Source: Cryptosporangium aurantiacum
GTDB lineage: Bacteria > Actinomycetota > Actinomycetes > Mycobacteriales > Cryptosporangiaceae
DNA length: 64,000 bases
NCBI RefSeq assembly: GCF_900143005.1
Contig: NZ_FRCS01000002.1
Location: forward strand, 434,001-498,000
Direction of reading: 5' to 3'
The position numbers and the translations under genes were made by a program. The notes under the pieces are model-generated. The model saw nothing but the letters and a program-made list of their open reading frames with translations, was not told the DNA's origin and ran no database searches. Below are positions 2 to 61,534 of the stretch, one piece after another. The first letter of the stretch is position 1; each line of letters begins with the position of its first letter.

Positions 2-1468
2 GGCCAGGGTGCGCTGTACGTCCTGGCCGGCTGCGCGGTGTTGCTGTACCCGAGCGGGCGTCCGACCGGGCGTCCCGAACGAGCCTGGGTGCTGTACGCG
101 ATCGTGGTGCTGATCGTCGGGCAGCTCATGGTGCAACTGGTCTCGCGTCCGGAGTGGAACGGCCTCGATCCGGACGTGTTCTGGCCGAACCTCGCGTCCG
201 AGCGGTGGATCTTCGACCGAACGATCGGGGTGGTGATCGCCGCGCAGTTGGTGCTCGTGGTCTGGTACCTCGTGCTGCTGGTGCGCGGCGCCCGTCGCCT
301 GTCCGAACTGGAACGCCCGGGCACGCTGCCCGTGCTGCTGGCCACCGGCGTCACCGGCGGCGCCGCCGCGGTCCTCACCGTGCAGACCGATGCCTGGACG
401 GACCTGGACGCGCTGCTGGCGTTCTACGTCAGCTTCAACGCGATCGCGATCGCGATACCGCTGGCCGTGCTCTCCGGGGTACTCCGGGAGCGCTGGCGTG
501 AGGTCGAGGCGCCCAACCGGGTGGTCCGGATGACGTCGGCGACCACGTCGGTGGCGACGGTGCGGGACGCGCTGGCCTCGGCGCTGCGCGACCCGGCGCT
601 GGAGCTGCTGTTCTGGGCGCCGGCCGAGCAGAGTTACGTGGACCGGGCCGGGCGGCTGGTGAGGCGCCCGGTCGACCGGACCGCGACCACCGGCCGGTGG
701 TGGGTCGAGGCTCGGACCGACGAGCGTCTGCCGCTGGCCCTGGTCGCGCTCGACGAGCGGCTGCGGCTCCGTCCGGCCATGGTGGACGCCGTCCTCCGCG
801 CCGGGAGCCAGGCGCTGCTCACCGCCCAGTTGCAGGCGGTGGCGACCGCGCACCTCAAGCAGGTGCTCGCCGCACAGGCCCGGGTCGAGGAGCGGGAGAC
901 CGCCGAGCGACAGCGGCTCCAGAACGACCTGCGCGACGGAGCGCAGCGGCAACTCGTCGCGCTCTCGGCGCAGCTCACCCGACTAGCGGACAACGGTCTG
1001 CCGGAGCCGGTGCGGTTGGTGGCCGTGTCCTGCCGCGACGAGGTACGCGCGACGATCGACGACCTGCAGGCGCTGGCACGCGGGTTACATCCGCCGGTGC
1101 TGCGGACCCACGGGCTGCGCGCGGCGCTGCTCGGCGTCGCCGATCGGCTCGGGCTCGCGGTGGACCTCGCGGTGGACACCGGACGGCAGCCACCCGCCGT
1201 GGAGGCGACCGCGTACTTCGCGCTCTGCGAAGGACTGACCAACGTGGCCAAGTACGCACCCGACGCGCGGGTGCGGATCGAGGTCGCCGAGGTGGGCGGG
1301 TGGCTGCACGGCACGGTCACCGACGACGGACCCGGTGGTGCGCGCGTGATGCCCGGCGGGGGCTTGGCCGGCATCACCGAGCGCATCCGTGCGCTGCACG
1401 GATGGGCCACCGTCGAGAGTGCCGTCGGTGCCGGTACCCGCCTGCGGGTCAGCCTGCCTTGCGACTGA
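2..1468 (+). CDS. Sensor histidine kinase-like protein, 5'-truncated by window, DHp histidine replaced
   Basis: The frame is open from base 2, so the true start lies left of the window; 488 residues are visible. It begins with membrane segments and a PSGRP motif typical of actinobacterial sensor kinases, then a coiled region, a HisKA_3-type dimerisation helix and an HATPase_c domain with an N box (EGLTNVAKYA) and glycine boxes (DDGPGG, GGGLAGI). In this family the DHp box normally reads DLHDGAQ. Here it is DLRDGAQ, with a CGC codon at 932-934, so the phospho-accepting His is missing. ATP-binding motifs look intact. No response regulator follows; a partner could lie to the left. It may be a degenerate kinase, a phosphatase or a heterodimer partner. 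Fold assignment is confident; activity is doubtful. Confidence 0.85.
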   Translation, partial: GQGALYVLAGCAVLLYPSGRPTGRPERAWVLYAIVVLIVGQLMVQLVSRPEWNGLDPDVFWPNLASERWIFDRTIGVVIAAQLVLVVWYLVLLVRGARRLSELERPGTLPVLLATGVTGGAAAVLTVQTDAWTDLDALLAFYVSFNAIAIAIPLAVLSGVLRERWREVEAPNRVVRMTSATTSVATVRDALASALRDPALELLFWAPAEQSYVDRAGRLVRRPVDRTATTGRWWVEARTDERLPLALVALDERLRLRPAMVDAVLRAGSQALLTAQLQAVATAHLKQVLAAQARVEERETAERQRLQNDLRDGAQRQLVALSAQLTRLADNGLPEPVRLVAVSCRDEVRATIDDLQALARGLHPPVLRTHGLRAALLGVADRLGLAVDLAVDTGRQPPAVEATAYFALCEGLTNVAKYAPDARVRIEVAEVGGWLHGTVTDDGPGGARVMPGGGLAGITERIRALHGWATVESAVGAGTRLRVSLPCD

Positions 1469-18211: not shown

Positions 18212-18292
18212 CTCGTCAGGAGTCCTCTGGTCAGCCACTGCAGGGCGCTAGCGGGCCGCGCTGCCGCGCCGGGATTAACCACCTGGTCAGAG

Positions 18293-18365
18293 AGCTGGTG
18301 AGGGGACTTGAACCCCTAACCGCCCGATTACAAGTCGGGTGCGCTGCCAATTGCGCCACACCAGC
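18293..18365 (-). tRNA. tRNA-Thr(TGT)
   Basis: The minus strand folds into a canonical cloverleaf: acceptor GCTGGTG/CACCAGC, D arm GCGC/GCGC, anticodon stem CCCGA/TCGGG with loop CTTGTAA (anticodon TGT), T arm AGGGG/CCCCT with loop TTCAAGT, U73, no encoded CCA. It stands alone, apart from the array near 60 kb, which holds a second Thr(TGT). Confidence 0.93.
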
Positions 18366-20200: not shown

Positions 20201-20542
20201 GGGCGGACCCTAACCGATCAAGCGCCGTCCGTATACCCGCCGGTAACCGAGCGACTTTGTGATGTACGTCATCGACACACCCCTCGTGCGGGTTTGAAAC
20301 GATTCATGGGCATAAAGATTACCCACCGATAGCACTCAATTACTTATTGCCACGAATAGTAAATCCGACCAATAGCGAACGCCGTCGACTGTCTTTCCCT
20401 GAACAGCAACGTCACCGACATGTGCGAGTTATCTTTGCTCCACGATCGGACCTGATGTCCGTTCGCGGGAGGCGGAGCTGTCCGCACCGTCCTCACCACT
20501 CGGATCGTCCGGCACGTTCCTGCCGGTGGAAAGGACTGCACC
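20201..20542. other. 342-base divergent regulatory region
   Basis: The gap between the LacI gene and the ABC ATPase gene is AT-richer than its surroundings, particularly 20300-20380. It contains the LacI-type operator, a near-palindrome TGATGTACGTCA (20260-20271), and no supported coding region. Confidence 0.6.
20295..20306. promoter_or_regulatory. LacI-type operator
   Basis: TGAAACGATTCA fits the LacI-family pattern TGNAAnCGnTTNCA-like with a central CG, inside the divergent gap 95 bases from the LacI start. Recognition is by pattern only. Confidence 0.55.
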
Positions 20543-39621: not shown

Positions 39622-40963
39622 GGTGGCGCTCCCAATCGGTCGTCGTGGCGGCGAACGCGGCGAGTTCGGCGTCGGCAGCGGCCGCGAGGTGCTCGACGAC
39701 CGTGTCACCGAAGGCCTCCCGCGCCACCGCACTCCCACGCCAGCACCGGGCAGCGGACTCCAGCGTCCGCGGCAGCGGTTCGCCGTCCCCACCCGGCGGC
39801 GGCAACGGCAGCTCCCGCTCGATGCCGTACAGCCCCGACGCGACTATCCCGGCCACCACCAGGTACGGGTTCGCGTCGCCGCCGGCGATCCGATGCTCGA
39901 ACCGCAGCGACGGCCCGGCACCGACGACCCGCACCGCCCGGGTGCGATCATCGGTGCCCCACGCTGCGGCGGTCGGCGCGAAAGCGTCCGGAGAAAGCCG
40001 TTTGTAGGCGTTGAGGGAGGGGGCGCAGAGCAGCGTGAACGCGGGCGCGCACGCCAGCACCCCGGCCAGGAAGTGCTCGGCGAGAGCCGACAAGCCGCCG
40101 TCCCGGTCGAAGACCGGGCGGTCGGACGCGTCCCGCAGGGACAGGTGCACGTGGCAGGAGTTGCCCTCGCCCTGGTCGAACTTGGGCATGAACGTGATCG
40201 CCCGCCCCGCCGCCTCGGCGATCTGCTTCGCACCGGTCTTGTAGAAGACGTGGCCGTCGCAGGCGTCCATCGCCTCGGCGTAGCGGAACACGATCTCGTA
40301 CTGGCCGGGGTGCACTTCGCCGCGCGCGGACTCGATCCGCAGCCCGGCCCCCGCCATGCCGCGCAGCAGCCTGCCGACGAGGTCGTCGAGCTCACCGAGG
40401 CCGGTGAGCGCGTAGTCGGAGTTGTACCGGGACGCTGTCCGCAGCCCGCGGTAGTCGCCGGCGAACGCCTCGCGGTAGGACTCGGTGAAGACCAGGAACT
40501 CCAGCTCGGTGCCGACCAGCGCGGTCAGTCCGCGGGCGGTCAGGCGGTCGAGCTGCGTGCGGAGGATTTGACGGGGCGCGACCGGGACCGGGGTGCCGTC
40601 GCGGTCGACGGCGTCGGCCAGCACGAGGGCCGTGCCGTTGCGCCACGGCAGCGGACGCGCGGTTCGCAGGTCGGGGCGCAGCACGAAGTCGCCGTAGTTG
40701 CCGGTGTAGCGGGCGGAGGCCTGCATCTCGACGTCCGCGGAGAGCAGGTAGTCGCACGCGCCGTACCCGTCCGACACGACCTGTTCGCGAAAGAAGTCGC
40801 CGGCCAGCCGCGTGCCCTGGAGCCGTCCGTACAGGTCGGGCAACGCCAGCACCACCTCCGCCGCCTCGGCGACCGGACTAGCGACGGCGGCCCGCGGGGC
40901 CGCCGCAACGCCCGGCCCGCTCGGAGCCGGGGCAGCGGCCGACCCGTTCGCGGTGGCGGTCAC
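39602..40963 (-). CDS. Glutamine-synthetase-like gamma-glutamyl ligase
   Basis: This 453-residue protein belongs to the GlnA/PuuA family. Its N-terminal beta-grasp part includes GYGACDYLLSADVEM and its catalytic part has VGTELEFLVF, GEVHPGQYEIVF, FMPKFDQGEGNSCHVHLSL and RIAGGDANPYLVVAG. Metal and ATP ligands look conserved, so it should form a gamma-glutamyl amide from glutamate and an amine. That is closer to PuuA, the glutamyl-polyamine ligase, than to housekeeping GlnA. It sits inside the siderophore operon with a GTGA overlap (40960-40963), where an N-acyltransferase would be expected. Confidence 0.85.
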   Translation of the reverse strand: MTATANGSAAAPAPSGPGVAAAPRAAVASPVAEAAEVVLALPDLYGRLQGTRLAGDFFREQVVSDGYGACDYLLSADVEMQASARYTGNYGDFVLRPDLRTARPLPWRNGTALVLADAVDRDGTPVPVAPRQILRTQLDRLTARGLTALVGTELEFLVFTESYREAFAGDYRGLRTASRYNSDYALTGLGELDDLVGRLLRGMAGAGLRIESARGEVHPGQYEIVFRYAEAMDACDGHVFYKTGAKQIAEAAGRAITFMPKFDQGEGNSCHVHLSLRDASDRPVFDRDGGLSALAEHFLAGVLACAPAFTLLCAPSLNAYKRLSPDAFAPTAAAWGTDDRTRAVRVVGAGPSLRFEHRIAGGDANPYLVVAGIVASGLYGIERELPLPPPGGDGEPLPRTLESAARCWRGSAVAREAFGDTVVEHLAAAADAELAAFAATTTDWERHRGFERL

Positions 40964-56819: not shown

Positions 56820-57428
56820 TCAACGCAGGAACCCGAAGGCCTGGTCAGCGGCGGCCACCGCGTCCGGGTAGAGCTCGTCGGCCGACCTGCCCGCCATGAG
56901 CTGCCGCCAGTTCTCCCGCGCGAGCACCCGCCGGACGGCGAGGATCTGCGCCGCACGCACCGCGGCGACGAGAGGGCTTTCCGTATCCTCCAAGGCGGTC
57001 GCCAGCGCGGCCTCGTCCGCCTCGGCGAACGCCGCCACGCGCGCCACCAGCGCCGGCGTCTCGAACACCAGCCGGTGGTAAGCCAGCACCTCGGGAACGT
57101 CGTTCAGCCCGGTCACCGGGTCGCGCCGCGCCAGCCCGTCGAGAAAATGCCGGTGCAGCGCCTCGACCGGCCCGACGCCCTCCGCCCGCTCCCGGACCAC
57201 CCGCGCGGACTCGCCCTGGTGGTCGCCGATCCGGTGCAGCACCAGATCTTCCTTGGACGGGAAGTACCGGAACAGCGTCGGCTTCGACACTTCGGCGGCC
57301 TCGGCGACGTCAGCCACCGACACCGCGTCGAACCCCCGCGCCAGGAACAGCCGGATCGCCGTCGCGGAGATCGTGTCGTGCGTGCGCTGCCGCTTGCGCT
57401 CCCGGAGCCCGCCCATGACGTAAAACAT
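56820..57428 (-). CDS. TetR family transcriptional regulator
   Basis: This 202-residue regulator has an N-terminal HTH (HDTISATAIRLFLARGFDAVSVADVAEAAEVSKPTLFRYFPSKEDL) and a helical ligand domain. It diverges from the HelD gene, with only 37 bases between their starts, so it probably represses both. Two starts are possible (57428 or 57416). The inter-start DNA contains repeated GTTAC units that may be its operator. The ligand is unknown. Confidence 0.88.
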   Translation of the reverse strand: MFYVMGGLRERKRQRTHDTISATAIRLFLARGFDAVSVADVAEAAEVSKPTLFRYFPSKEDLVLHRIGDHQGESARVVRERAEGVGPVEALHRHFLDGLARRDPVTGLNDVPEVLAYHRLVFETPALVARVAAFAEADEAALATALEDTESPLVAAVRAAQILAVRRVLARENWRQLMAGRSADELYPDAVAAADQAFGFLR

Positions 57429-57453
57429 ATCAGGGTTAAATTCGTTACTCGGT

Positions 57454-57459
57454 TACAGT
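57454..57459 (+). promoter_or_regulatory. Possible -10 element of a leaderless helD promoter
   Basis: TACAGT ends six bases before the GTG at 57466. That is the distance expected for a leaderless transcript, and no Shine-Dalgarno sequence is present. The -35 element is not clear. Confidence 0.35.
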
Positions 57460-57465
57460 ATCGGG

Positions 57466-59406
57466 GTGGATACCGAACTGGCCGAGGAACAGGAGTACCT
57501 CCGCGCGGCCCGCAAGACCCTGACCCAGATGCTCGACCACGCCCGGCACCGCGTAGCTACCGGCGAAACCATCGCCGGGGACGGCTACACCGCCGAAGTA
57601 CTCGGCCGCCTGCTGCGCAGCCGCGCCAAAGAACTAGCCGAAGAACCCGACGGGCCACTGTTCTTCGGACGCCTACGCTTCGGCCCCGACGCCGGCGACC
57701 ACGCCGACCAGCAGTACTACCTCGGACGCCGCCGCATCGGCCTCGGCGCCGAGATGCCACTGGTCATCGACTGGCGAGCCCCGGTATCCAGCCGCTTCTA
57801 CCGCGCCACCGCAACCGACCCCATGGGCGTCCAGGTACGCCGCCGCTACGGCTGGAGCACCAGCCCAGCCGAACTGACCGGCTACGAAGACGAACACATC
57901 ACCAGCGGACTCCCCAGCCGATACCTCACCGAAGAAATCGAACGACCCCGCGTCGGACCCATGCGCGACATCGTCGCCACGATCCAAGCCGACCAAGACC
58001 AACTGGTCCGCGCCGACCTCACCACCTCGACCTGCGTCCAAGGCGGCCCCGGCACCGGCAAGACCGCGGTCGGACTGCACCGCGTGGCCTACCTGCTCTA
58101 CGCGTACCGCGAGCGGCTGCGCCGCGACAGCGTGCTGGTCCTCGGCCCCAACCCCGCGTTCCTCCGGTACATCTCGGCAGTGCTTCCGACACTCGGCGAG
58201 GTCGAGGTGGAGCAGGGCACGCTCGACGACCTGCTCGACTCGGTGCCGGTGCGAGCGACCGATGCCGCTGCCGCAGCCGCCGTGAAGCACGACGTGCGTA
58301 TGGCCAAGGTGCTGCGGCGGGCGCTCTACGGCCGCATTCGCCCGCCCGCCGAGCCGATCACGATCGCGGACGGCTCGTACCGCTGGCGAGTACCGGAGGA
58401 GTACCTGGCCCGGCTGGTGGTCAGCGTCCGCCGCGAGGCCCCGACCTACGGCCTGGGCCGGGAACGGCTGCGGGCCCGCGTCGTCGGGCTGGTGCAGCGG
58501 CAGGCTGAACGGCGGGTCGGTGCGCTCAGCGCTGCGTGGACGCAGCGGATCGGCCGCAGCAAACCGGTGAAAGACCTGCTAGAGCATTGCTGGCCGCGGG
58601 TGCGGCCGGTCGACCTGGTGGCCGAACTACTCACTGATTCGGACGCCATGAGCGCGGCCGCCGACGGGATCCTGACCCCGGCGGAACAGAACGCGATCGG
58701 GCGCCGGGTCAAGAACCGGTGGACCCTCGCCGATGCGCTGCTCGTCGACGAGGTGGCCGGGCTGATCGACCACCCACCGGGTTACACCCACATCGTCGTG
58801 GACGAGGCGCAGGACCTCTCCCCGATGCAGTGCCGCGCGATAGCCCGCCGCTGCCGGTACGGGTCGCTGACTGTGCTCGGCGACGTCGCTCAGGGCACCA
58901 CTCCCTGGGCCGCCGGCTCGTGGCCGGAGCAGCTCGGCCACCTGGGTCAGCCGGATGCGTCGGTCACGCCGCTGACGACCGGCTTCCGCGTCCCCGCGGC
59001 CGTCCTCGAACTGGCCGACCGGCTCCTCGACGTGGACGTACCCCGAACCCGGTCGTACCGGACCGACGGCTGGGTGAATTGTCGCCACACCGACGACTTG
59101 ATCGCCGGTGTCGTCTCGGCCGTGCGGGACGCGCTGCGCTACGAAGGTTCGATCGGCGTGATCACGGCCGACGCGGCGGCCGAGCGCGTGTCCGCAGCGC
59201 TGACGTCCGTCGGGGATCCCCGGGTCAACACCATCCCGGCGAGCCTGGCGAAGGGGCTGGAGTACGACCACGTCGTCGCGGTCGAGCCCGCGGACATCGT
59301 CGACGCCGAACCGCGCGGGACGAACCGGCTCTACGTCGTGCTCACCCGCGCGGTGTCCCGGCTGGACGTGGTGCACTCTCGGCCGCTGCCCGCAGCGCTG
59401 GGCTGA
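57466..59406 (+). CDS. helD: HelD-type RNA polymerase-recycling ATPase
   Basis: This 646-residue superfamily 1 helicase-like protein has an N-terminal coiled arm (DTELAEEQEYLRAARKTLTQMLDHARHR), RFGPDAGDHADQQYYLGRRRIGLGAEMPLVIDWRAP (HelD hallmark), Walker A VQGGPGTGKTAVGLHR near 191-206, DEAQDLSPMQCRAIARR, and VLTRAVSRLDVVHS. HelD releases stalled RNA polymerase from DNA; some actinobacterial versions (HelR) also eject rifamycin. It is shorter than many homologues. A TetR repressor diverges from it. Gene ends 44 bases before the tRNA array. Confidence 0.88.
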   Translation: MDTELAEEQEYLRAARKTLTQMLDHARHRVATGETIAGDGYTAEVLGRLLRSRAKELAEEPDGPLFFGRLRFGPDAGDHADQQYYLGRRRIGLGAEMPLVIDWRAPVSSRFYRATATDPMGVQVRRRYGWSTSPAELTGYEDEHITSGLPSRYLTEEIERPRVGPMRDIVATIQADQDQLVRADLTTSTCVQGGPGTGKTAVGLHRVAYLLYAYRERLRRDSVLVLGPNPAFLRYISAVLPTLGEVEVEQGTLDDLLDSVPVRATDAAAAAAVKHDVRMAKVLRRALYGRIRPPAEPITIADGSYRWRVPEEYLARLVVSVRREAPTYGLGRERLRARVVGLVQRQAERRVGALSAAWTQRIGRSKPVKDLLEHCWPRVRPVDLVAELLTDSDAMSAAADGILTPAEQNAIGRRVKNRWTLADALLVDEVAGLIDHPPGYTHIVVDEAQDLSPMQCRAIARRCRYGSLTVLGDVAQGTTPWAAGSWPEQLGHLGQPDASVTPLTTGFRVPAAVLELADRLLDVDVPRTRSYRTDGWVNCRHTDDLIAGVVSAVRDALRYEGSIGVITADAAAERVSAALTSVGDPRVNTIPASLAKGLEYDHVVAVEPADIVDAEPRGTNRLYVVLTRAVSRLDVVHSRPLPAALG

Positions 59407-59426
59407 CCCACGGCCGGTGAGTTGAT

Positions 59427-59443
59427 ACTGCACAGTGGATGGC
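59427..59443. repeat. Left arm of the inverted repeat around the tRNA array
   Basis: ACTGCACAGTGGATGGC here is exactly complementary to the 17 bases at 60975-60991. In a minus-strand transcript the arms would pair and enclose sixteen tRNAs. Confidence 0.75.
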
Positions 59444-59449
59444 GAACGG

Positions 59450-59534
59450 AGCCCGAAGTCGGATTCGAACCGACGGCGTCGACGAGCGACGGCTGCTTTG
59501 CAGGCAGCTCCCTTGACCACTCGGGCATTCGGGC
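59450..59534 (-). tRNA. tRNA with Cys anticodon (GCA) and long variable arm
   Basis: Acceptor GCCCGAA/TTCGGGC, Ser/Leu-like D arm CCC-GGG, anticodon stem GCTGC/GCAGC with loop CTGCAAA (GCA), T stem GTCGG/CCGAC. The variable region is 17 bases and folds as CGTCG-CTCGT-CGACG, a class II arm that bacterial tRNA-Cys normally lacks. U73 is the CysRS identity base. CCG, not CCA, follows. Last gene of the array. Confidence 0.8.
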
Positions 59535-59539
59535 TGGCG

Positions 59540-59613
59540 CACCCCCGGGCGGAATCGAACCGCCGACCCCCAGCTTCGGAAGCTGGTGCTCTTGTCCGCT
59601 GAGCTACGAGGGC
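59540..59613 (-). tRNA. tRNA-Arg(CCG)
   Basis: Acceptor GCCCTCG/CGGGGGT (one G-T pair), D arm GCTC/GAGC, anticodon stem CCAGC/GCTGG with loop TTCCGAA, T stem GGCGG/CCGCC, G73, no CCA. Confidence 0.9.
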
Positions 59614-59649
59614 GATGGCACGGGCGATCTCCATCTACCTGCACCCGCT

Positions 59650-59724
59650 TGGGGTGACCGGCCGGGATCGAACCGGCATCTCCAGGGTCACGACCTGGCG
59701 CTCTCCCATTGAGCTACGGCCAAC
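59650..59724 (-). tRNA. tRNA-His(GTG), aberrant
   Basis: G-1 opposite C73 and encoded CCA mark a tRNA-His; anticodon stem CCAGG/CCTGG. Two oddities: base pair 1-72 is T/C (mismatch) and the loop is TCGTGAC, with C at position 33 instead of the near-universal U. Confidence 0.8.
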
Positions 59725-59725
59725 G

Positions 59726-59799
59726 TGCCCGCGGACGGTCTCGAACCGCCGAACCTCCGCCGTGTGAAGGCGGCGCTCTCCCAGCTGAGCTACACGGGC
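59726..59799 (-). tRNA. tRNA-Val(CAC)
   Basis: Acceptor GCCCGTG/CGCGGGC, anticodon stem CCGCC/GGCGG with loop TTCACAC, T stem GGCGG/CCGTC, A73, no CCA. Confidence 0.9.
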
Positions 59800-59826
59800 A
59801 GCACGGACGCCGTCGTCCGCGTCACG

Positions 59827-59899
59827 CTCTCCCGCCTGGACTCGAACCAGGTGCCTTGCGGTTAACAGTCGCCTGCTCAGCCTGTTGAGCTTCGGGAGA
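59827..59899 (-). tRNA. tRNA-Asn(GTT), weakened anticodon stem
   Basis: Acceptor TCTCCCG/CGGGAGA is perfect; loop CTGTTAA gives GTT; G73. Only three of five anticodon-stem pairs form (GGCGA against CCGCA), so function may be reduced. Confidence 0.8.
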
Positions 59900-59900
59900 A

Positions 59901-59975
59901 TGGCAGCGCGTGCGGGACTCGAACCCGCTTCGTCCGGGTGAAAACCGGACAGCCTAACCCATAGCCGAACGCGCC
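59901..59975 (-). tRNA. tRNA-Glu(TTC)
   Basis: Acceptor GGCGCGT/ACGCGCT, anticodon stem TCCGG/CCGGA with loop TTTTCAC, T stem GCGGG/CCCGC, G73, and an encoded CCA (59901-59903). Confidence 0.88.
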
Positions 59976-59989
59976 ATTGTGGTGTTGCG

Positions 59990-60062
59990 TGCCCCGACCA
60001 GGCCTTGAACCTGGGACCCCCACCGTGTCGAGGTGGTGCTCTACCGACTGAGCTACCGGGAC
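59990..60062 (-). tRNA. tRNA-Val(GAC) with C33
   Basis: Acceptor GTCCCGG/TCGGGGC, D arm GCTC/GAGC, anticodon stem CCACC/GGTGG with loop TCGACAC, T stem CCAGG/CCTGG, A73. Position 33 is C instead of U, as in the array's tRNA-His. Confidence 0.83.
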
Positions 60063-60063
60063 G

Positions 60064-60140
60064 TGGACGCGGAGACCGGACTCGAACCGGCGATCTGCGA
60101 GCTTATGAGGCTGCCGGGGACGCCGCTCCCCTACTCCGCG
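60064..60140 (-). tRNA. tRNA-Met-like (CAT), atypical
   Basis: Acceptor CGCGGAG/CTCCGCG, D stem GGGG/CCCC, loop CTCATAA. The initiator's three G-C pairs are absent, two outer anticodon-stem pairs mismatch, and the discriminator is U73 with encoded CCA. It may be an elongator Met or Ile2-type tRNA. Confidence 0.75.
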
Positions 60141-60151
60141 ACGGTGCTACG

Positions 60152-60224
60152 TACGCCGCCCGGGAGTCGAACCCGGGACCCACTGATTAAGAGTCAGCTG
60201 CTCTGGCCTCTGAGCTAGCGGCGC
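60152..60224 (-). tRNA. tRNA-Lys(CTT)
   Basis: Acceptor GCGCCGC/GCGGCGT, anticodon stem GCTGA/TCAGT with loop CTCTTAA, T stem CCGGG/CCCGG, A73, no CCA. It shares acceptor stem and flank with the following Lys gene, so the two arose by duplication. Confidence 0.92.
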
Positions 60225-60244
60225 TTCAAGGTGGCGATGCTGCG

Positions 60245-60317
60245 TACGCCGCCGGGGGCTCGAACCCCGGACATACCGATTAAAAGTCGGCAGCTCTACC
60301 AACTGAGCTAGCGGCGC
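60245..60317 (-). tRNA. tRNA-Lys(TTT)
   Basis: Acceptor GCGCCGC/GCGGCGT, anticodon stem GCCGA/TCGGT with loop CTTTTAA, T stem CGGGG/CCCCG, A73, no CCA. Confidence 0.93.
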
Positions 60318-60318
60318 A

Positions 60319-60405
60319 TGGAGGAAGGCAGAGGAGTCGAACCCCCGGGGTTGCCCCCGCCTCCGGCTTTCGAGGCCGGCTGCCCACCGCTGGACGGTGC
60401 CTTCC
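60319..60405 (-). tRNA. tRNA-Ser(CGA) with U73
   Basis: Class II: acceptor GGAAGGC/GCCTTCC, anticodon stem CCGGC/GCCGG with loop CTCGAAA, long variable arm with GGGG/CCCC. Discriminator is U73 with encoded CCA; bacterial tRNA-Ser normally has G73. Confidence 0.85.
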
Positions 60406-60435
60406 ATGGTCGGGGTTGGAGCTATGGCGACGTCG

Positions 60436-60509
60436 AGCCGGTGACAGGAATCGAACCCGCGTCCGGCGCCTTACAAGGGCGCTGCTCGGCCAACGTGAGC
60501 TACACCGGC
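60436..60509 (-). tRNA. tRNA-Thr(TGT), second copy
   Basis: Acceptor GCCGGTG/CACCGGC, D arm GCTC/GAGC, anticodon stem GCGCC/GGCGC with loop CTTGTAA, U73. It has the same anticodon as the lone tRNA-Thr at 18293 but a different body. Confidence 0.9.
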
Positions 60510-60541
60510 ACGGTGGTGGTGCGTGCCCCGGCGGGGCGACG

Positions 60542-60615
60542 AGCGGCTGGCCGGCTTCGAACCGGCGACCTTCTCCTTGGCAAGGAGACGCTCTGACCTA
60601 CTGAGCTACAACCGC
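60542..60615 (-). tRNA. tRNA-Gly(GCC)
   Basis: Acceptor GCGGTTG/CAGCCGC, anticodon stem TCTCC/GGAGA with loop TTGCCAA, T stem GCCGG/CCGGC, U73. Confidence 0.92.
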
Positions 60616-60637
60616 GATGGGTACTGCTGCGACGGCG

Positions 60638-60711
60638 TGCCCTGGGCGGGAGTCGAACCCGCACTGGACCCGGTTTGAGCGGGCTGCCTCTGCCGGTTGG
60701 GCCACCAGGGC
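60638..60711 (-). tRNA. tRNA with Leu anticodon (CAA) but short variable loop
   Basis: Acceptor GCCCTGG/CCAGGGC, anticodon stem GCCCG/CGGGT with loop CTCAAAC, T stem GCGGG/CCCGC, A73. Only five bases (CCAGT) separate anticodon and T stems, a class I variable loop, whereas bacterial tRNA-Leu is class II. Confidence 0.8.
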
Positions 60712-60720
60712 GCGAAGGTG

Positions 60721-60793
60721 CTCCGGGGGTAGGACTCGAACCCACGTAGACCGCGTCCAAAGCGCGGCTGCCCAGCCGTCAGAGCACCCCGGA
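60721..60793 (-). tRNA. tRNA-Gln(TTG)
   Basis: Acceptor TCCGGGG/CCCCGGA, anticodon stem CCGCG/CGCGG with loop CTTTGGA, T stem GTGGG/CCTAC, G73. The D stem (GCTC/GGGC) is offset by one base relative to normal. Confidence 0.85.
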
Positions 60794-60828
60794 TCGGCTC
60801 CGCTGAGCTGCGGAGACCACTTGCCACG

Positions 60829-60900
60829 TCTGGAGCCCCGGAGTTGAACCGGGTTTCTCGCACTTCCAAGGTGCGCGGGTTTCCGTCTCCCTCGCTCCAG
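60829..60900 (-). tRNA. tRNA-Pro(TGG)
   Basis: Acceptor CTGGAGC/GCTCCAG, D stem GGG/CCC, anticodon stem CGCAC/GTGCG with loop CTTGGAA, T stem CCCGG/CCGGG, A73. Position 8 is G rather than U. Confidence 0.87.
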
Positions 60901-60974
60901 ATTCGCCGGGCGCCCTCCCCCGCGGGGACGGGGACGCCCGGCACCGCGCCGACACGGGTCGGCGCCGTGTACGT

Positions 60975-61000
60975 GCCATCCACTGTGCAGTTCTCAAGGA
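60975..61000 (-). promoter_or_regulatory. rRNA-leader-like boxA and right arm of the array inverted repeat
   Basis: On the minus strand TCCTTGAGAACT (60989-61000) resembles the boxA antitermination element of actinobacterial rRNA leaders and spacers. It runs into ACTGCACAGTGGATGGC (60975-60991), the exact complement of 59427-59443. This element lies between tRNA-Trp and tRNA-Pro. Confidence 0.6.
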
Positions 61001-61030
61001 TCAGGTCCGCCGGTAAGCCGGGGTGGTGCG

Positions 61031-61104
61031 CATGGGCGGCAGGAATCGAACCCGCAACATCCGGCTTTGGAGGCCGGCGCTCTACCAATTTGAGCTACAC
61101 CCAT
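61031..61104 (-). tRNA. tRNA-Trp(CCA)
   Basis: Acceptor ATGGGTG/CGCCCAT, D arm GCTC/GAGC, anticodon stem CCGGC/GCCGG with loop CTCCAAA, T stem GCGGG/CCTGC, G73. First tRNA of the array; it lies outside the inverted repeat. Confidence 0.92.
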
Positions 61105-61111
61105 AGATGGG

Positions 61112-61143
61112 AAACAATTTCCGGGCAGCACGAATAAACAATT
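61112..61143. repeat. Direct repeat upstream of tRNA-Trp
   Basis: AAACAATT occurs at 61112-61119 and 61136-61143, 24 bases apart, in the AT-rich strip between the terminator and tRNA-Trp. This strip could hold a promoter for the array. Confidence 0.4.
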
Positions 61144-61148
61144 GGCGA

Positions 61149-61186
61149 TAAAAGAAAACCGCCCCGATCCCGACTGGGAGGGGCGG
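61149..61186 (-). terminator. Intrinsic terminator between the small ORF and the tRNA array
   Basis: On the minus strand a CCGCCCC/GGGGCGG stem (61180-61186 with 61159-61165) is followed by TTTTCTTTT (61149-61158), a textbook intrinsic terminator, unusual at this GC content. It lies 45 bases before tRNA-Trp. Confidence 0.85.
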
Positions 61187-61207
61187 CGTCAGCAGGCGCT
61201 GAGTGCG

Positions 61208-61336
61208 CTAGCTTCGCCACCGTTCCCGGTGCGGTTCTTGCAGGCCATTGGTCGAGCAGGAGGGGTACCGGACGCACGGGACACCCTCGCTGAGCAGCCA
61301 CATTTGCTGCTCGGCGTTCATGCGGGTCCCCGACAT
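61208..61336 (-). CDS. Small ORF (42 aa) upstream of the tRNA array
   Basis: From ATG 61336, with AGGAG eight bases upstream, 42 codons run to a TAG at 61208. The peptide (MSGTRMNAEQQMWLLSEGVP, then a CVRYPSC motif and a tail with a second Trp) has two Cys and two Trp residues. It has its own promoter-like sequence and is followed by the intrinsic terminator. It may be a small protein, or a leader peptide for attenuation of the tRNA array. I know no homologue. Confidence 0.5.
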   Translation of the reverse strand: MSGTRMNAEQQMWLLSEGVPCVRYPSCSTNGLQEPHRERWRS

Positions 61337-61414
61337 CGCGGTCTCCTGATCCTCTGTCGATGGTGCTCGGTGCTGACGTAGACGTTAGTGGCCGGCCGTC
61401 CGACCGCCAAGCCA

Positions 61415-61444
61415 ATTATGCGTAGCCGCCCCGCCGGGAATCAA
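61415..61444 (-). promoter_or_regulatory. Promoter for the small ORF
   Basis: On the minus strand TTGATT (61439-61444) and CATAAT (61415-61420) are separated by 18 bases, a good vegetative-type promoter. It would give a leader of about 70 bases before the ATG at 61336. Confidence 0.5.
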
Positions 61445-61482
61445 TAGCAGCGCAGGAATTCGCCGCGCTATTTCAAAACGCA

Positions 61483-61519
61483 GGACGCGTCTCCCCGGCG
61501 GAACCGGGGAAACGCGTCC
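61483..61519 (-). terminator. Hairpin terminator after the nitrilase gene
   Basis: GGACGCGT and CCCCGG (61483-61498) pair with CCGGGG and ACGCGTCC (61504-61519) with one mismatch and a 5-base loop. On the minus strand TTTTG follows shortly. Confidence 0.7.
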
Positions 61520-61534
61520 GTTGAGATTGGTGAC

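Follow-up and report, generated by a model that had tools for sequence, protein, structure and literature searches.

Gene content of the array

The window analysed here, a 64,000-nucleotide stretch of the Cryptosporangium aurantiacum genome (G000), contains a dense run of tRNA genes on its reverse strand. ARAGORN called 16 tRNAs across 59448-61104 (-) and Rfam added a tRNA-Asn at 59827-59899 (47.7 bits), giving the 17 genes, in the transcription order, of the original prediction. On whole-genome scale Rfam backed 15 of these 17 by hand tally, leaving Ser and Pro unsupported. As anticipated, no protein gene lies inside the array, the two ORFs proposed there by a simple gene caller having flat third-position GC, and a second copy of tRNA-Thr(TGT) was indeed called elsewhere in the window (18292-18365, ARAGORN). 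Non-canonical features, attributed beforehand to many members, are borne by some: the 75-nt tRNA-Leu, the 87-nt tRNA-Cys and the tRNA-His with T for G at -1. Searched with Rfam at gathering score, the window yielded no rRNA. The control unit has a conserved order, in which promoter, 42-codon uORF and intrinsic terminator are followed by tRNA-Trp and one half of an inverted repeat, the other half standing after the last tRNA:

61415-61444 (-): candidate promoter, reading 2; TTGATT, 18 nt, CATAAT, with the A/T box as -10
61382-61419 (-): candidate promoter, reading 1; ATAATT, 3 nt, TTGGCG (61405-61410), 17 nt, TAACGT (61382-61387)
61208-61336 (-): uORF of 42 codons; CAGGAG at 61343-61348
61212-61227 (-): predicted antiterminator strand in the final uORF codons, top partner of the terminator 5' arm
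61150-61187 (-): intrinsic terminator; 5' arm (61176-61187), 3' arm and T-run
61030-61104 (-): tRNA-Trp(CCA), upstream of the stem; ARAGORN, Rfam
60974-60998 (-): stem 5' half with CTTGAGAACT leader; 17-bp core at 60975-60991
60828-60900 (-): tRNA-Pro(TGG); ARAGORN
60720-60793 (-): tRNA-Gln(TTG); ARAGORN, whole-genome Rfam
60637-60711 (-): tRNA-Leu(CAA), 75 nt, short variable loop; ARAGORN, Rfam
60541-60615 (-): tRNA-Gly(GCC); ARAGORN, Rfam
60435-60509 (-): tRNA-Thr(TGT); ARAGORN, Rfam
60319-60405 (-): tRNA-Ser(CGA); ARAGORN
60244-60317 (-): tRNA-Lys(TTT); ARAGORN, Rfam
60151-60224 (-): tRNA-Lys(CTT); ARAGORN, Rfam
60064-60140 (-): tRNA-Met(CAT); ARAGORN, whole-genome Rfam
59989-60062 (-): tRNA-Val(GAC); ARAGORN, whole-genome Rfam
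59901-59975 (-): tRNA-Glu(TTC); ARAGORN, Rfam
59827-59899 (-): tRNA-Asn(GTT), not called by ARAGORN; Rfam
59725-59799 (-): tRNA-Val(CAC); ARAGORN, Rfam
59650-59723 (-): tRNA-His(GTG), T at -1; ARAGORN, Rfam
59539-59613 (-): tRNA-Arg(CCG); ARAGORN, Rfam
59448-59534 (-): tRNA-Cys(GCA), 87 nt, additional variable arm; ARAGORN, Rfam
59427-59443 (-): stem 3' half, a perfect 17-bp inverted repeat of 60975-60991

A stem shared with pre-23S rRNA

The inverted repeat around the array recurs in the processing stem of G000's pre-23S rRNA, the array stem having 21 bases identical to G000's own pre-23S rRNA leader. Leader and processing-stem sequence are the same as in the pre-23S segment of the rrn operon, but tRNA genes take the position of the 23S rRNA, and rRNA is absent. 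The comparison set comprised 46 arrays, drawn from the Micromonosporaceae and from the family of the window's genome. Of these, 31 had a stem 3' half when searched with a pattern that preset some of the paired bases, and a reversed-read control matched in 0 of 41 segments; nine arrays had space for a 3' half in which none was found, and in a further six the sequence ended. The stem bases covary, pairing being restored by compensatory changes at three positions. The arrays with such compensation, L194, L195 and L197, may go back to one event, and the 3' half of L192 is doubtful. We rejected the TTGAGAACT box as a general antitermination element, as arrays of the window's genus and of some others keep it and most Micromonospora arrays do not. 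The stem motif in its mycobacterial form is not widespread: three of 301 genomes had it, with one mismatch each and one match in the reversed control, and no tRNAs lay at the three sites.

Leader and predicted attenuator

The window's terminator consists of a hairpin of -22.6 kcal/mol with a bulged stem, followed by TTTTCTTTT, and is missing from the list of a generic terminator scan. Both a uORF and a terminator were found in 41 of the 45 arrays examined, and in every one of these 41 leaders the uORF (36-53 codons) ends 14-22 nt ahead of the terminator, with its final codons forming the best complement of the terminator 5' arm in 38. When the transcript ends at the 5' arm, the final uORF codons are predicted to form an antiterminator in 40/41 leaders; when a ribosome occupies the stop codon, the terminator is predicted to fold in 41/41. 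The window's leader behaves likewise, in that its predicted folds are mutually exclusive and set by ribosome position. Base-shuffled leaders yielded an antiterminator in 16.5% of cases. Full-length naked leaders favoured the terminator in 28/41, and antitermination would therefore have to be kinetic. Because dN of the uORF (0.10) is close to dS (0.12), and synonymously permuted uORFs still gave the antiterminator in 66.5%, the peptide itself is hardly constrained; a conserved leader peptide acting as sensor was rejected on the same closeness of dN to dS.

Multi-tRNA operons are common, and the set in the array repeats standard anticodons, as would be expected of an ordinary, constitutively expressed cluster serving dosage or codon supply, in which uORF and terminator would close an unrelated upstream transcript. 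However, the complementarity of uORF end and terminator arm, their regular spacing, and the generic scan, in whose list the stretch from the terminator to tRNA-Trp has no promoter, argue against such a cluster, and we consider it highly improbable.

Promoter and WhiB7

Array promoters were scored against the published WblC/WhiB7 layout, GAAAWY-3-TKGMNN-16..19-TANNNT (13 positions; consensus from PMC7157823). At a shuffle p <= 0.05, 34 of 45 matched and 11 missed the threshold, compared with 2 of 26 housekeeping tRNA loci, these two being a divergent pair. In the window, reading 1 agrees with the consensus at 10/13 positions, which is not significant (shuffle p 0.2), and is absent from the generic scan's list; the same elements and spacing are found in four of the five arrays of the genus. 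Reading 2 scores 9/12 in the generic scan (shuffles mean 0.2), and TTG-like hexamers were seen by eye 17-18 nt upstream of the A/T box in the other arrays of the genus as well; in this genus a different promoter could use the box as its -10 just as well. Among the genes of G000 is one for WhiB7 that carries EPW and RGRP motifs, and a site in its upstream region scores 11/13. For this whiB7 promoter, the register read by eye is one base off the best-scoring one.

Redundancy and divergence

The original prediction regarded the array as a specialised second set and proposed a search for other copies of each anticodon; this search bore the claim out, since each of the 17 anticodons is represented by a further gene of the genome. 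G000 carries a second array, on another contig, and the two together cover 20/20 amino acids with little overlap, as do the two arrays of G003 (hypergeometric 0.0007 for G000 and 0.0004 for G003, assuming independent losses). Compared with the gene order of M. humi, the G000 array genes show two local departures, and two of them are missing from M. humi. As the genes of the two arrays interleave along this order, and each array has a separate leader and a separate 3' stem half, fission of a single array is an unlikely source of the pair.

Mean identity between the 30 tRNAs of the two G000 arrays and housekeeping genes of matching anticodon is 68%, and the anticodon stem is identical in 4.4% of 633 comparisons of array members with same-anticodon G000 housekeeping genes. 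Array Leu tRNAs measure 69-79 nt in 64 of 72 cases, versus 84-86 nt for five housekeeping Leu tRNAs. Identity marks and stems are retained in most array members: across the array family, G3:U70 is present in 44 of 45 Ala genes and in 4 of 650 other tRNAs. This retention across the wider family indicates that the array tRNAs are not chance folds. The distance from the housekeeping genes, including the short Leu tRNAs, would suit a backup against tRNA-cutting nucleases, whereby diverged tRNAs escape toxins or phage-triggered nucleases, and stalling caused by cut tRNAs would be sensed by the same attenuator. Anticodon-loop bases, however, are mostly unchanged in the arrays (position 33 in 100%, 37 in 83%, and 32 and 38 in ~70%), and a role as nuclease backup seems to us unlikely.

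Distribution and mobility

Dense arrays of this kind had been thought rare in actinobacterial chromosomes, which fails for Micromonosporaceae, where the stem motif adjoins tRNAs in 18 of 53 sampled genomes; the motif was not found in the congener G001. Arrays among relatives reach 37 tRNAs, that of Micromonospora lupini Lupac 08 having 29. Since 19 of the 46 arrays have <= 9 tRNAs, some of them truncated by the end of the sequence, the complete set is not retained everywhere. Contrary to the suggested association with a mobile element, none was found at the locus: the array is situated inside an 874-kb contig, and the four window neighbours searched against Pfam are non-mobility genes. Both flanks are syntenic with a congener whose corresponding site holds other genes and no array, which indicates that the array unit does change place, and flanking genes differ among the seven array loci compared. 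Among the best-ranked blastn matches to a related array, a plasmid covers 11% and a phage 6%, with no record reaching 80%. On these coverages, and because none of the seven motif-bearing stretches on viral contigs has a tRNA, a phage or plasmid origin of the window's copy was rejected.

Many small arrays, differing sites and fast evolution could also be the marks of a mobile or phage tRNA array in decay, its leader surviving as a relic, and two mycobacterial plasmid arrays, with HNH genes within, have a related leader (TTGAGAACTNCACAGTGG, shared with window-type arrays), although no uORF-terminator was seen by eye in either. Yet identity marks and stems persist in most members, stem and attenuator are conserved across two families, and the viral contigs with the motif lack tRNAs; decay from such an element is accordingly rather improbable.

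Discussion

We consider it somewhat more probable than its opposite that the array serves as a reserve tRNA operon of the chromosome and that impaired translation switches it on. A promoter, of WhiB7/WblC type in most relatives, would start a transcript opening with the short uORF. Ribosomes finishing the uORF would cover its final codons, allowing the terminator to fold and stop transcription ahead of the first tRNA; with ribosomes blocked or scarce, these codons would instead pair with the terminator 5' arm, permitting read-through into tRNA-Trp and the array. The pre-23S-like stem would then enclose the array transcript for initial trimming by RNase III and the rRNA maturation route, after which tRNA-processing enzymes would separate the tRNAs. 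The products would be chargeable tRNAs that supplement or replace the housekeeping set. WhiB7 control, induction by translation stress, cleavage by RNase III and a benefit to the cell are what we infer beyond the gene set, the conserved layout, the stem covariation, the predicted exclusive folds and the identity marks, which the analysis shows.

Parts of this scheme have precedents. The trn operon of Anabaena sp. PCC 7120, with 26 tRNAs, is normally silent, repressed by TrcR and induced by translation-targeting antibiotics (PMC10272220). The window's array resembles it as a large redundant tRNA operon, a second set beside scattered housekeeping genes; as far as the trn operon is described there, the window's array differs in lying on a large contig rather than on a megaplasmid under TrcR repression, and window-type arrays differ in having a uORF attenuator, a 23S-type stem and, in most relatives, a WblC-type promoter. 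Mycobacterium tRNA array units are likewise redundant and dense, many with all 20 isotypes, and occur on plasmids and phages besides chromosomes (PMC5966550, PMC6515697; HNH endonuclease is among the keywords). Against the reported tRNA array unit (Tran/Morgado) of 19 to 39 tRNAs (PMC6515697), the window's 17 fall below the range but share the redundancy with scattered tRNAs; carriage on plasmids, phages or prophages, reported though not strictly defining, contrasts with the large contig and syntenic flanks here. Gene order differs between Mycobacterium and window-type arrays, and the words promoter, terminator and inverted repeat are absent from the available text of PMC5966550. A regulatory parallel is the WblC/WhiB7 regulon, whose promoter layout is matched by most of the arrays, with the window's own site short of significance. 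It includes six tRNA genes that WblC controls directly (PMC7157823), and has uORF leaders with terminator and antiterminator that respond to ribosome-targeting drugs; the uORF examples described there act on protein genes, whereas the target here is a tRNA array (PMC7157823, PMC10727445, PMC12421871). All elements of a ribosome-mediated attenuator (uORF, terminator and exclusive antiterminator) are present by prediction.

More tentatively, and at less than even confidence, the arrays of Micromonosporaceae and the window's family might be rRNA-type units in which a second tRNA set, almost complete and fast-evolving, took the place of the 23S gene and came under the control of a ribosome-sensing attenuator together with a WhiB7 promoter. 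They would form an alternative, antibiotic-inducible tRNA complement for use when translation is attacked; where arrays are duplicated, complementary loss of genes would preserve it as a functional whole.

In published work the function of such large, redundant arrays is called unclear or debated, and the control region leads to a concrete prediction, that they are an emergency tRNA supply opened by ribosome trouble. Published tRNA counts in Micromonospora range from 48 to 87 (PMC6026663), with 77 in M. lupini versus 51-53 in three others (PMC4182475); arrays such as the one in M. lupini may explain part of this spread. The array offers a tRNA operon that would be under the control of translation itself.

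Two tRNA arrays in one genome

ARAGORN called 16 minus-strand tRNAs at 59448-61104 of the window and Rfam added tRNA-Asn as the 17th array member, together bearing out the gene order of the original prediction. The prediction had named duplication of every anticodon by a canonical gene elsewhere as a mark of a specialized or mobile-element set, and all 17 anticodons do recur among the 49 distinct tRNAs that ARAGORN called outside arrays in the fetched stretches of the genome, for which Rfam gave 76 tRNA matches overall (9.58 Mb, 44 contigs). A further ARAGORN call, tRNA-Arg(GCG) at 40858-40940, lies within a long ORF, is absent from the Rfam matches and is probably false; an msiK regulatory RNA occupies 20484-20541.

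A second array stands near the start of contig C3:

L031 1616-2821: second array, 13 tRNAs
L031 1501-3252: its whole unit, with its own promoter, upstream ORF (uORF), terminator and stem

All 13 tRNAs have another gene elsewhere in the genome, and they include Ala, Asp, Ile, Phe and Tyr, the five amino acids absent from the window array; a tRNA-Trp remnant stands where the intact gene would be. Together, the two arrays amount to 30 genes for 20 amino acids, and the two arrays of G003, a genome of the same genus, to 28 genes for 20. Genes present in both arrays number three in the window's genome (Asn, and by ARAGORN His and Val(CAC)) and one in G003; the hypergeometric probability of so small an overlap in these two genomes tested is 0.0007 and 0.0004, respectively, if losses were independent and the union comprises 29 anticodons, a list drawn up by hand. 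Asanoa iriomotensis, Rugosimonospora africana and genome G239 also have two arrays each.

Distribution and sequence of the array tRNAs

Exact ACTNCACAGTGGATGGCA occurs in 64 stretches of genome contigs, of which 27 bear a tRNA run and come from nine genera placed in Micromonosporaceae by NCBI taxonomy and two MAGs so titled; the other 37, our chance control, come from a wide range of phyla, two of them (L146 and L148) being actinobacterial. At one mismatch the motif is present in 25 of the 298 genomes of the order and adjoins tRNAs in 22 of them: 18/53 Micromonosporaceae and 4/5 of the window's family (one of these, G004, shows just one tRNA, at the end of a contig). After removal of four identical duplicates from the 50 taken, 46 arrays of 3 to 36 tRNAs were analyzed; 19 have at most nine, some of these being cut by the sequence end.

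Isotype identity marks kept among 719 ARAGORN-called array tRNAs
Ala G3:U70: 44/45 genes
Gly U73: 42/42 genes
Trp G73: 37/37 genes
Cys U73: 21/21 genes
Ser G73 (weaker): 36/43 genes
Met A73 (weaker): 18/32 genes

Between the window's genome and G003, mean identity is 83.6% for array tRNAs (n=28) and 96.3% for housekeeping tRNAs (n=31), the latter taken solely from the loci of the 30 top-scoring matches, a choice that may favor conserved genes. Array Leu genes measure 69-79 nt in 64 of 72 cases; most (60637-60711 and relatives) lack the long variable arm that housekeeping Leu has and that array Ser and Tyr tRNAs retain.

A bracket of the pre-23S type

A 17-bp perfect inverted repeat brackets 16 of the 17 window tRNAs, leaving Trp outside; it has no further match in the window at ≤3 mismatches, and two matches arose in 0/100 shuffles. 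The sequence TTGAGAACTNNACAGTG has six copies in the genome: one in each array, one directly before the 23S rRNA on contig C40, and three at contig ends in sequence resembling a 16S leader, no 16S itself being seen there. Because the array leader has 21 identical bases in common with the genome's own pre-23S leader, and a matching 3' strand follows the 23S, the bracket is, judged by sequence, a pre-23S-type processing stem.

The 3' half was found in 31 of the 46 arrays, with none despite room in nine and the sequence ending too early in six; its pattern matches 31/41 sufficiently long segments, and 0/41 read backwards. Core cells, part of them fixed by the search pattern, pair at 95.6%, versus 25-60% after sliding, and free positions carry compensatory pairs.

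Compensatory pairs at free stem positions (28 distinct stems)
Position 4: C-G 24, G-C 2
Position 10: T-A 20, C-G 4
Position 14: T-A 21, C-G 3

A tRNA-Met lies just beyond the 3' half at three loci (L116, L162, L147). Two mycobacterial plasmid arrays, L219 (near 4002) and L222 (near 4777), have a TTGAGAACTNCACAGTGG leader in common; in L219 there is an 11-bp 3' half as well.

A predicted uORF-terminator switch

Promoter, ribosome-binding site, short ORF and terminator stand 5' of the arrays. Among 45 leaders (one of the 46 being too short), uORF and terminator were both called in 41, with no uORF in three and no terminator in one; the generic terminator scan omitted the window terminator, whose stem has a bulge. 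The terminator 5' arm starts 14-22 nt past the uORF stop in 41/41, and in 38/41 its best partner, sought over every 16-nt window of each leader, ends 1-7 nt short of the stop codon's end. Transcripts ending at the 5' arm are predicted to form the antiterminator in 40/41 leaders, versus 16.5% of base-shuffled leaders and 66.5% of synonymously permuted uORFs. Full-length naked leaders are predicted to fold into the terminator in 28 cases and the antiterminator in the other 13; when bases -16 to +12 relative to the stop are made unavailable, as they would be under a terminating ribosome, the terminator is predicted in 41/41. Ribosome passage, rather than the uORF peptide, is likely the signal, since dN (0.10) lies near dS (0.12) across ten Micromonospora uORFs (45 pairs). 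Direct repeats resembling AATTGTTT lie between terminator and tRNA-Trp (61110-61150), with similar ones in genus arrays (by eye).

WblC-activated promoters, as an excerpt of PMC7157823 gives them, read GAAAWY, 3 nt, TKGMNN, 16-19 nt, TANNNT. This layout was found at shuffle p ≤ 0.05 in 34/45 arrays (GAATAT in 15 of these) and, by the same test, at 2 of the 26 tRNA loci that lie outside arrays in the window's genome (30 tRNA loci minus the four array ones), the two forming one divergent pair. The genome's own whiB7 gene (L231) encodes EPW and RGRP motifs and has a 5' site scoring 11 of 13 against the consensus. The window candidate, ATAATT-GGC-TTGGCG-N17-TAACGT, scores 10 of 13 (shuffle p 0.2) and competes with TTGATT-N18-CATAAT at 61444-61415, from a generic promoter scan, under which the A/T box would be the -10; that reading also fits other genus arrays by eye. 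On these grounds, WhiB7 (WblC) control of the array family is likely, and for the window array it is no more than plausible.

Genomic context and genes inside arrays

Both flanks of the window array are syntenic in G003, and the G003 counterpart of 57410-61534 holds NmrA-like and amidohydrolase-like genes (named by eye) and no tRNA. Near the window array lie genes for a UvrD-like helicase, a nitrilase-family enzyme, a TetR regulator and a CoxG-like protein. The ORFs that seven array loci have in common all lie within arrays, bar a weak match, at 30%, linking two non-adjacent genes. Two arrays carry a protein gene between tRNA-Gly and tRNA-Gln:

L092 9100-9471: HNH endonuclease gene
L089 8435-9394: HNH endonuclease gene, within a called ORF

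These two are 67% identical across two families; the array HNH gene matches, as DNA, an HNH gene of two Arthrobacter-type plasmids, and two mycobacterial plasmid arrays contain HNH genes as well. At L091 8300-12440, the array is broken by genes whose products carry domains of the ClpX-type zinc finger, nickel superoxide dismutase and flavin reductase kinds.

A predicted emergency operon

No paper joining "tRNA array" with "WhiB7" was found in the open-licence literature, and no title or abstract start among the open-licence matches listed when tRNA arrays were paired with attenuation, RNase III, stress or Micromonospora describes this layout. For the Anabaena trn operon, PMC10272220 describes an emergency tRNA operon that works by a different route. 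In the simplest account, the array would be an emergency tRNA operon, transcribed when translation of the uORF fails; its expression, the binding of WhiB7, cleavage by RNase III and a benefit to the cell are all predictions.
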